NCBI GenBank assembly: GCA_002448495.1
Contig: DJYL01000235.1
Span: forward strand, 1-11,537
Direction: 5' to 3'
Source: Pseudoselenomonas ruminantium
Lineage (GTDB): Bacteria > Bacillota > Negativicutes > Selenomonadales > Selenomonadaceae
DNA length: 11,537 bases
The position numbers were made by a program, and so were the translations under genes. The notes below the pieces were generated by a model, which had not been told where the DNA came from, searched no databases, and saw only the letters and a program-made list of their open reading frames with translations. Shown here one piece after another: positions 6,849-9,358 of the stretch. The first letter of the stretch is position 1. Each line of letters begins with the position of its first letter.

Positions 6849-7012
6849 GGGAACAGGTGTCCTACGGACTTAATAGGGAATCCGGTACAAGCCGGAGCGG
6901 TCCCGCCACTGTAAGGTGGAGTCCTGCATCATATTGTCACTGGGGTAGAAATGCGTACCTTGGGAAGGCGATGCAGGATGATGAAACCGAGCCAGGAGAA
7001 CTGCCTGTTCTG
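6849..7012 (+). promoter_or_regulatory. Cobalamin (B12) riboswitch aptamer
   Basis: The conserved cobalamin-riboswitch blocks occur in order: GGTGTCC/GGAC (6856-6869), then CTTAATAGGGAA (6869-6880), the GCGGTCCCGCCACTGT core (6897-6912), and the B12 box AGCCAGGAGAACTGCC (6990-7005), with one change from the usual AGACCTGCC. The aptamer is closed by GAACAGG (6851-6857) pairing perfectly with CCTGTTC (7004-7010). A nine-bp peripheral stem, TCCTGCATC (6922-6930) with GATGCAGGA (6970-6978), encloses the variable arm. The family binds adenosylcobalamin or related cobalamins in the mRNA leader. It sits between the mut promoters and a terminator before mutA. Identity is very likely; ligand subclass and the direction of control are not determined here. 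Confidence 0.95.
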
Positions 7013-7044
7013 ACATCACCGTGATGCGAGAATTTCGTGTCGTG

Positions 7045-7116
7045 CCTGCGAGCGATGGGTAGGGGATTGAATCTAAGCGTGGGGACTTTGTGCGCAAGTA
7101 GAGGGCAATCTATCTG
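7045..7116 (+). promoter_or_regulatory. Possible antiterminator / anti-antiterminator of the riboswitch expression platform
   Basis: GATTG (7065-7069) can pair with CAATC (7106-7110), and GGTA (7058-7061) with TATC (7111-7114), about nine pairs with a three-base bulge. This would use up the left arm of the downstream terminator. The same upstream strand can instead form a small hairpin, CCTGC (7045-7049) with GTAGG (7059-7063). Such competing folds are what a transcription-attenuating riboswitch needs. This was found by eye without energy calculations, so details may be wrong. Confidence 0.4.
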
Positions 7117-7142
7117 TATTTCGCAGATGGATTGCCTTTTTT
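7104..7142 (+). terminator. Riboswitch-controlled intrinsic terminator before mutA
   Basis: GGCAATCTATCTG (7104-7116) pairs with CAGATGGATTGCC (7124-7136), a 13-bp stem with one G-U pair and a seven-base loop, followed by six T residues (7137-7142). It lies about 90 bases after the aptamer and 38 bases before the mutA start. Its place inside the leader, rather than after a gene, makes attenuation the natural reading. Confidence 0.92.
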
Positions 7143-7180
7143 GGTGTACGGGTTTTCACAAGACAAGAGGAGGCTGTGCT

Positions 7181-9358
7181 ATGAGTAAAGAAACTGGCGA
7201 GCTGGATTTACAGGCCATCTTGAAAAAGGCCGAGCAGCAGACGGACTTTCCCGATGTGCCACTTGATGAGTTCACTCCACCGACTTATGAGGAGTGGAAA
7301 GAGGCCTGTATCACCCTGCTCAAAGGGGCGCCCTTTGACAAGAAGATGTATACCAAGACCTATGAGGGCATCACCTTTGACCCCATGTACTTCCGCAAGG
7401 ACACGGAGGACATTCTGCCCAAAGAGTCTTTCCCGGGAATGGGGGACTATTTGCGCGGTGCCCAGCCCAGCGGGTATGTGGGCAAGCCCTGGGGCATTGC
7501 TCAGGCCTGTGATGAAACCCTGCCGGAGGAAAATAACGAGCTTCTGCGCCATGAGCAGGAGAAGGGCTCGACCATCTATCATATCAAGCTGGACAGCGCG
7601 AGCTTAAAGTCCGAAGATGTGCGCAAGGCCGCTGCACCCGGAGATGAGGGCGTGTCGGTGACGAACCTGGACGATATGCACACCCTGCTGAGTGGCTTGA
7701 AACTCGATAAATATCCTGTCTATCTCTATGCCGGAGAATCGGCACTGCCGATGTTGTCGCTCTTTGCCGGGGCACTGAAAGCCTCCGGGCAGGATTTGAC
7801 GAAAATCCGCGGCATTGTCGGTGCTGACCCGTTGGGGGAACTTACGGCGAAGGGCAAAAACAGCAAGGACCTCGAAAGCCTTTACTGCGATATGGCCAAG
7901 TGCGCCAAGTGGGCAGTGAAACATGCACCGGGACTCAAAACGGTCTTTGTGCGCAGTGATGTGTACAGCCGTGGTGGGGCCAATGATGTGCAGGAGTCGG
8001 CTTATACGCTGGCCACAGCAGTAGCTTATCTGCGGGCTTTGCTCGAACGCGGCCTGACCATAGACGAAGCGGCCGGACAGATAATGTTTGGTTTTTCCAT
8101 GGGGGCAAACTTTTTCCTGCAGATTGCCAAACTGCGTGCCCTGCGTCCGCTTTGGGCACAGATTGTCGAAGCTTTCGGTGGCAGTAAGGACGCGCAGCGC
8201 ATGCATATCCATGCGCGTCCCGCATTGTTCTTCAAGACCGTCTATGACCCCTATGTCAATATGCTCCGCAATACCACGGAGATTTTCTCCGGTGTTGTGG
8301 GCGGCGTGGATTCTTTTGAAAGCTCGCCCTTTGATGAGCCCATTCGCAAGGGTGATGAATTCTCCCGCCGCATTGCGCGTAATGTGCAGATTATCCTGCA
8401 GGAAGAATTCGGCCTATTGCAGCCAATTGACCCGGCCGGTGGTTCGTGGGCCGTGGAAACGCTCACGAAGCAGATGAAGGAAAAAGTCTGGGCCGAGTTC
8501 CAGGTAATCGAGGGCAAGGGCGGGATGCTGAAGGCTTTGCAGGAAGGTTATCCGCAGAGTGAGATTGCAACTATTCTTGCCGCCCGCTTCAAGGCTGCGG
8601 AAACTCGCAAGGACCGTATCGTGGGCAACAATATGTACCCGAATATGACGGAAAAATTGCTCGACCCGCGTCCCGAAGATGTGGAGGAGAACAAGAAACA
8701 GCGTACGGCACAGGTCGAAGCCTATCTGGCCGATATCGACGAAGCCTTTAAGGCGGAAAAAATCAAAGCCTTGCAGAATGGTGAGGGCTGTCTGGTCAGC
8801 CTGGCTATCGAAGCGGCACAGGCTGGTGCTACGACGGCTGAAATCGCTGCTGCTTTGGCCGGCAAGGAAAGCGAAACGGTTACGGCTATTGACCCGCACC
8901 GCTGGAGTGAACGCTTTGAAGCCCTGCGCAAGACCACGGAGGCTTACAAGGCAGAACATAACGATAATGTGAAGATTTTCCTTGCCAATATGGGGCCAAT
9001 CCCGCAGCACAAGGCAAGGGCCGATTTCACCACGGGCTTTTTGCAGGTCGGTGCCTTTGAGGTGCTGGGCAATAACGGTTTCCCAACCGTGGAAGAAGCT
9101 GCCCAGGCAGCGAAAGAATCCGGGGCTGATGCCGTGGTTATCTGTTCGACCGATGCGACCTATCCCGAAATCGTGCCGCAGCTGGCGCCCAAACTCCATG
9201 AAGTCCTGCCCGAAGCGACGGTGTTCTTAGCCGGTGCCGCACCGAAGGATTTGCTTGAAACCTACAACGAAGCCGGTATTGACGAATATATTTCCGTCAA
9301 GGCCAACTGCTATAAAATCCTGCAGCTCCTGCAGCAGAAGAAAGGGATGATTGCATAA
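7181..9358 (+). CDS. mutA: Methylmalonyl-CoA mutase small (non-catalytic) subunit
   Basis: A 725-residue subunit that pairs with MutB to form the heterodimeric mutase interconverting succinyl-CoA and (R)-methylmalonyl-CoA on the propionate route. Early landmarks are TYEEWKEACITLLKG (35-49), LLKGAPFDKKMYTKTYEGI and RGAQPSGYVGKPWGIAQ. Mid-barrel segments include SRGGANDVQESAYTLA and EFSRRIARNVQIILQEE, and IDPAGGSWAVE follows. The last ~130 residues resemble a B12-binding Rossmann domain, but the DxHxxG cobalt-ligand motif is degenerate: the aligned stretch PQHKAR (608-613) keeps a histidine but lacks the Asp and Gly. This is as expected for the subunit that does not bind cofactor. The frame stays open upstream to 7037, but that would cross the terminator. 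ATG 7181 is chosen because GAGGAGG (7167-7173) lies seven bases before it. The stop shares a base with the mutB start (TAATG), implying coupled translation. It is longer than the Propionibacterium MutA (about 640 residues). Confidence 0.94.
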   Translation: MSKETGELDLQAILKKAEQQTDFPDVPLDEFTPPTYEEWKEACITLLKGAPFDKKMYTKTYEGITFDPMYFRKDTEDILPKESFPGMGDYLRGAQPSGYVGKPWGIAQACDETLPEENNELLRHEQEKGSTIYHIKLDSASLKSEDVRKAAAPGDEGVSVTNLDDMHTLLSGLKLDKYPVYLYAGESALPMLSLFAGALKASGQDLTKIRGIVGADPLGELTAKGKNSKDLESLYCDMAKCAKWAVKHAPGLKTVFVRSDVYSRGGANDVQESAYTLATAVAYLRALLERGLTIDEAAGQIMFGFSMGANFFLQIAKLRALRPLWAQIVEAFGGSKDAQRMHIHARPALFFKTVYDPYVNMLRNTTEIFSGVVGGVDSFESSPFDEPIRKGDEFSRRIARNVQIILQEEFGLLQPIDPAGGSWAVETLTKQMKEKVWAEFQVIEGKGGMLKALQEGYPQSEIATILAARFKAAETRKDRIVGNNMYPNMTEKLLDPRPEDVEENKKQRTAQVEAYLADIDEAFKAEKIKALQNGEGCLVSLAIEAAQAGATTAEIAAALAGKESETVTAIDPHRWSERFEALRKTTEAYKAEHNDNVKIFLANMGPIPQHKARADFTTGFLQVGAFEVLGNNGFPTVEEAAQAAKESGADAVVICSTDATYPEIVPQLAPKLHEVLPEATVFLAGAAPKDLLETYNEAGIDEYISVKANCYKILQLLQQKKGMIA

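Follow-up and report, generated by a model that had tools for sequence, protein, structure and literature searches.

A cobalamin riboswitch of repressing anatomy in the leader of the B12-dependent methylmalonyl-CoA mutase genes of Pseudoselenomonas ruminantium, and the occurrence of cobalamin riboswitches before mutA in other Negativicutes

Cobalamin (vitamin B12) riboswitches are generally described as controlling either the supply of B12, through synthesis and uptake genes, or B12-free isozymes. Here we analyze a stretch of 11,537 nucleotides from Pseudoselenomonas ruminantium (contig DJYL01000235.1, positions 1 to 11,537, hereafter the window), in which a cobalamin riboswitch lies directly before mutA and mutB, the genes for the two subunits of B12-dependent methylmalonyl-CoA mutase. 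The closest described system is the mutA switch of Veillonella parvula, another species of the same class, with the same aptamer family and the same target gene (PMC9600662, PMC7160235). In an assay of 86 corrinoid riboswitches in Bacillus subtilis, 38 repressed GFP, 37 of them with a predicted terminator, and the V. parvula mutA switch served as the example of the promiscuous type among these repressors (PMC9600662). A riboswitch upstream of the Veillonella mutase gene was also noted in PMC7160235, so that the direct arrangement of switch and mutase is not unique to the window, and riboswitches near cobamide-dependent isozymes are mentioned in PMC9600381. The available text of PMC9600662 does not discuss cofactors that repress the enzymes they serve. 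In the accessible portions of the openly licensed literature we found no treatment of such repression or of the spread of the mutA switch over the class; priority for the mutA switch may be older than the literature we found.

A rule for telling repressing from activating corrinoid riboswitches is given in the accessible text of Procknow et al. 2023 (PMC10653944): in activating switches, the 3' strand of stem P13 is shared with the 5' arm of the terminator. The same text names one natural activating corrinoid riboswitch, that of Alkalihalobacillus halodurans cobT, which has the aptamer family, P13, and an intrinsic terminator in common with the window. However, P13 and terminator share a strand in cobT and ligand activates, whereas no strand is shared in the window. 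The repressing metE switch of Priestia megaterium (PMC10653944) acts on a B12-independent isozyme, whereas the target in the window is a B12-dependent enzyme, and the antiterminator strand of the window sits in an extra helix closing P13. The Listeria propanediol antisense RNA, as far as it is described in the accessible text of PMC11575231, likewise ties a cobalamin riboswitch to B12-dependent catabolism, but it acts indirectly and leaves the genes on with B12, while the window switch lies in cis and is predicted to repress.

Our analysis identified a real corrinoid riboswitch with repressing anatomy and a target that is unusual but already reported. Most probably, the leader is a repressing (OFF) transcriptional switch of a mutA-mutB operon, which has meaB behind it in relatives. 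Computation revealed the aptamer, the terminator, mutually exclusive helices, and their conservation in the class; the direction of switching in P. ruminantium is a prediction. The elements, in window coordinates, are:

6784..6813, + strand: putative sigma-70-like promoter TTGACA-18-CATAAT, 11/12 consensus positions, by consensus match alone
6838..7022, + strand: cobalamin riboswitch aptamer, RF00174, full length, E 7.3e-26
6901-6905, + strand: L5 consensus UCCCG, inside the aptamer, from the sequence
7015..7020, + strand: predicted 5' strand of the anti-antiterminator, helix A; in the duplex prediction, 7063-7067 pairs with AUC 7015-7017 and CC 7019-7020
7044..7060, + strand: P13 stem-loop, from the sequence
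7048-7056, + strand: loop L13, GCGAGCGAU, expected kissing partner of L5 by analogy with the family
7063..7069, + strand: shared strand, predicted by folding to pair with 7015-7020 (ligand state) or with 7106-7111 in the terminator 5' arm (antiterminator)
7104..7142, + strand: intrinsic terminator with 13 base pairs, 7-nucleotide loop, and UUUUUU, from the sequence
7168..7173, + strand: mutA ribosome binding site AGGAGG, from the sequence
7181..9358, + strand: mutA, methylmalonyl-CoA mutase small subunit, 725 amino acids; PF01642, 504.4 bits
9358..11535, + strand: mutB, large catalytic subunit that includes a B12-binding domain, stop codon past the window; PF01642, 752.7 bits; PF02310, 65 bits; NF006944, 1244.6 bits

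An initial annotation, made from the sequence alone, had proposed a cobalamin aptamer, a strong intrinsic terminator, and mutAB behind them. The Rfam covariance search bore out the aptamer, matching model positions 1-189 and scoring 104.6 bits where the gathering threshold is 31.5, and moved its start from 6849 by 11 bases to 6838; nothing else in the window matched Rfam above threshold. The terminator, too, was as described. Its stem pairs 7104-7116 with 7124-7136 around a loop at 7117-7123, UUUUUU follows at 7137-7142, and the predicted folding energy of 7100-7142 is -25.3 kcal/mol. A consensus terminator scan of the window did not list this hairpin, and we suspect that the stem counter ran into the U tract. 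Both open reading frames matched methylmalonyl-CoA mutase (PF01642). Pfam detected the B12-binding domain PF02310 in the mutB product and none in the mutA product. NCBIfam named the large subunit above its cut-off of 876, and the small subunit scored 394.9 bits against TIGR00642, under the cut-off of 617.25, which we read as divergence. Aptamer and terminator thus stand directly before mutA-mutB, in the leader of the mRNA of the B12-dependent enzyme itself, as had been proposed.

Folding of the leader suggests how ligand could set the fate of transcription. Binding of an adenosyl-corrinoid, the presumed ligand, would stabilize P13 and helix A (7015-7020 with 7063-7067) through a kissing loop between L5 and L13. 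With strand 7063-7069 so occupied, the terminator at 7104-7136 would form and RNA polymerase would halt at the U tract. Without ligand, 7064-7069 would pair with 7106-7111 as the antiterminator, and mutAB would be transcribed. In the nascent RNA 7009-7119, the predicted antiterminator probability was 0.91 when folding was unconstrained and 0.01 when helix A and P13 were forced. With the same helices forced and the RNA extended to 7136, the terminator probability reached 1.0. The forced structure is 7.1 kcal/mol less stable than the free one (-20.3 against -27.4), a deficit that ligand and kissing loop would have to cover. In L13, a short CG is all that matches the CCG core of L5. The CGA of L13 was invariant in 55 aligned leaders, a pattern to be read with the fact that the selection pattern itself contains CGA, with one mismatch allowed.

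The initial annotation had raised the matter of whether the same leader precedes mutA in other Negativicutes, and we found it in most of those examined. In a sample of the family (Selenomonadaceae), 98 of 121 genomes had a MutA match, and 95 of these loci were examined (the window and 94 fetched loci; G065, G083, and G099, each with only a piece of mutA, were left out). A custom covariance model built from 25 aptamers (that of the window plus 24 from outside the 94 loci) detected an aptamer in 82 of the 95, window included. All 81 aptamer-positive fetched loci had it on the mutA strand and upstream of the gene, at distances of 136 to 1164 bases with a median of 270. An Ldh-family gene stands between aptamer and mutA in L154 and L155. 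The 13 negative loci comprised 12 of a single genus, g13, and L109, which is too short to judge with only 254 bases upstream. All 12 examined g13 genomes lacked an RF00174 match near mutA, and their whole genomes held 0 to 2 matches each. In a class sample of 200 genomes, MutA was matched in 110, of which 66 lie outside the family. Every one of the 65 loci fetched from these (G273, partial, was left out) carried RF00174 upstream of mutA on the same strand. Distances, measured in 64 (L244 was not placed), ran from 169 to 1125 bases and exceeded 1 kb in L264, L275, and L277. The comparison covered the family and class samples. Chance placement of the switch was rejected as incompatible with this conservation in family and class. 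Near-universality before mutA in the sampled genomes and its one-genus exception are what the present analysis adds to the earlier reports, together with a testable explanation, discussed below.

Some individual loci had features of their own. The g13 loci without a mutA riboswitch are L102, L115, L117, L120, L132, L134, L142, L144, L147, L148, L151, and L156. Tandem cobalamin aptamers of the same direction, with starts 320 to 1373 bases apart, precede mutA in L086 (1321-1482 and 1924-2085), L075, L127, L133, L248, and L253. In L153, 145 bases separate two divergent aptamers at 1507-1679 (- strand) and 1825-1982 (+ strand), and one of the two points toward a MutA of 50% identity. The mutA aptamer of L078 (2071-2238; same genome as L049) has a short leader, with the mutA start about 110 bases past the B12 box and no terminator seen, and may act on translation. 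An apparent in-frame TGA inside MutA of genus g59 was rejected: in L252, L259, and L279, the three TGA-bearing loci available in full, it proved to be the normal stop codon, which the alignment places at the penultimate query residue.

We then compared the competing helices across leaders. A script for the L13 motif found it in 74 of the 94 fetched family loci; of the remaining 20, 13 had no detected upstream aptamer and 7 had an aptamer that the pattern missed (L078, L130, L136, L139, L140, L154, and L155). The 74 family leaders, 65 from outside the family, and the window made 140 leaders, from which 7 without a hairpin by our criteria and 2 without an L13 match were removed. The resulting 131 were reduced to 69 representatives. 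In the swap test, the pairing of each leader's own strands was compared with that of strands exchanged between leaders. Using trimmed zones with P13 excluded, 85 of 10000 permutations were as good as the observed helix A (n=69), and 107 of 10000 when only the 60 unique combinations were used; own pairing beat the median swap in 41 of the 69 leaders. For the antiterminator, where the better of the first two hairpins was taken, 213 of 10000 permutations were as good (n=67, hairpins of -9 kcal/mol or better). A control pairing to the terminator 3' arm gave 4534 of 10000. These tests support the competing helices and are not proof of them, because the zones were trimmed after a first test and shared ancestry was not removed from the significance. 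Compensatory changes were also seen in single lineages: L089, from the same genome as L060, has GAUUACC/GGCAAUC, and L090 and L091 combine GGAUGG with CCAUC where the window has GGAUUG with CAAUC. Pairs were not counted on alignment A1, in which several rows carry one strand shifted by a single base.

Several results weigh against the repressing reading. The first swap tests, on wide zones, were not significant: 2246 of 5000 permutations reached the observed helix A, and 377 of 5000 the observed antiterminator. The 6-base-pair antiterminator core of the window, taken alone, was not beyond chance, with 696 of 5000 strand shuffles as good. Antiterminator predictions were weak in 5 of 6 representatives of genus g59, which we suspect to be Veillonella (-1.0 to -2.4 kcal/mol; L280, -7.2 kcal/mol), and by eye no clear antiterminator was seen in L002 of the source genome. 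The complete free RNA was predicted to prefer the terminator even without ligand, so that the decision must fall during transcription, as in a kinetic switch. Finally, a terminator-like hairpin overlapping the L13/P13 region (start less than 12 bases after the L13 start) occurs in 16 of the 74 family leaders, as might be the case in an activating switch. It is strongest in L125 (-23.2 kcal/mol), L114 (-22.6), and L135 (-16.7), and several of these hairpins have a poor U tract.

This last feature bears on an activating (ON) switch, in which corrinoid would prevent the terminator and the enzyme would be made when its cofactor is present. The initial annotation had put this forward as one way out of the paradox of an OFF switch on a B12-dependent enzyme. 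Such a direction is biologically intuitive and has its natural precedent in A. halodurans cobT (PMC10653944). In the window, however, P13 ends at 7060 and the terminator begins at 7104, without the strand sharing that marks the published activating switch. Instead, an intrinsic terminator stands between aptamer and mutA, and the strand 3' of P13, sitting in the P13-closing helix and not in P13 proper, can pair with the terminator 5' arm, as the repressing rule has it. The ON guess is not supported because terminator and P13 share no bases, while the P13-closing helix competes with the antiterminator for one strand. A scan of the family loci, from which the window itself was excluded, found no overlapping hairpin in L063, a near-identical relative of the window, and the V. 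parvula mutA switch is reported among the GFP repressors, according to the accessible text of PMC9600662. We consider activation improbable.

A repressing switch on a B12-dependent enzyme does look paradoxical, as the initial annotation rightly said. One possible reason, which we advance tentatively, is cofactor buffering: scarce B12 would bring more mutase and more of its chaperone MeaB, and the level of active enzyme would then vary less. With the mutase only partly loaded at low B12, mass action would let extra apo-enzyme and MeaB bring holo-enzyme back up. A toy model took B12 through a 100-fold span (0.1-10 Kd), over which holo-enzyme varied 1.9-5.1-fold with an OFF switch (5-20% leak), as against 10-fold with constitutive expression and 24-97-fold with an ON switch. 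The model shows only that an OFF switch can make sense. In the accessible text of PMC11575231, Xylanibacter ruminicola is described as raising its mutase with B12, with no riboswitch near the gene, which is the opposite of the buffering idea and also speaks against our reading.

The same OFF anatomy and the same predicted direction would arise if the switch served economy: the mutase is abundant and costly, little protein would saturate flux at high B12, and no homeostatic role would be needed. This explanation rivals the reason and not the mechanism, and the sequence does not tell it from buffering. By itself, economy does not explain why meaB lies on the same operon in relatives, and we regard it as somewhat doubtful.

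Annotation downstream of mutB covered the two commonest families in relatives, meaB (PF03308, 346.9 bits) and an MsrA-like gene (PF01625, 96.4 bits). The cluster counts behind this ranking are lower bounds, with longer antisense frames hiding some mutB, meaB, and MsrA genes. At the window locus meaB was not seen because the contig ends 345 bases past the window. These neighbors also bear on the idea that the switch is there for genes further down the operon and not for mutAB. It is general knowledge that cobalamin riboswitches leading an operon often serve uptake or synthesis genes, and a rarer supply gene may lie among the other downstream genes; with meaB and the MsrA-like gene as the commonest families behind mutB, we think this very improbable.

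The MsrA-like gene follows meaB in many relatives, in L063 at 5556 bases after the mutA start. The MsrA-like protein reads GGNFHEL at the site of the catalytic cysteine of MsrA, so that its function may be a different one.

A further alternative is that the terminated leader RNA is itself the working product, acting in trans like the ethanolamine and propanediol regulators. An RNA of about 320 nucleotides (6820-7142, with the start inferred from the promoter) would indeed arise at high B12. Conserved competing helices right before mutA argue for a role in cis, and we hold a trans-acting RNA to be extremely improbable.

The repressing reading also gains context from other cobalamin riboswitches of the species and genus. 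The source genome (2.1 Mb in 239 contigs, 68.8% complete) encodes a MutA that shares 99% identity with its counterpart in Selenomonas ruminantium ATCC 12561, the nearest named relative. The genome contains three cobalamin riboswitches, the mutA leader and two before permease genes, and by eye a platform motif is common to all three. The second precedes an Opp2B-type nickel permease gene (392.8 bits, cut-off 350). Elsewhere in the genus, two targets of cobalamin riboswitches were annotated, both under model cut-offs: a cobaltochelatase resembling CbiK and a substrate-binding protein that matches BtuF weakly. Given these targets, the mutase switch seems to belong to a B12-scarcity regulon.

If this extends across Negativicutes, a general rule could apply in which the cofactor represses its own enzyme. 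Scarcity of B12 would then induce apo-enzyme and chaperone along with B12 and cobalt acquisition, buffering the holo-enzyme of the propionate pathway. Riboswitch use would be on the demand side, as distinct from control of supply or of isozymes. We offer this rule as a conjecture that may well prove wrong. Under a conserved OFF switch on the mutase, B12 feeding may lower mutase mRNA in these propionate producers and yet raise mutase activity. The prediction is concrete and cheap to follow up, for example in rumen cobalt and B12 trials, and the switch-less genus g13 provides a natural control.

The third riboswitch of the source genome (L003, 1501-1677, - strand) stands before a permease gene whose CitMHS match is weak (24.7 bits, cut-off 31.9) and which has no obvious link to B12. 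Upstream of the mutA leader, the window contains two further features:

5214-6716: Na+/H+ antiporter family protein, by PF03553 match
6727-6756: terminator-like hairpin after this upstream gene, from the consensus scan

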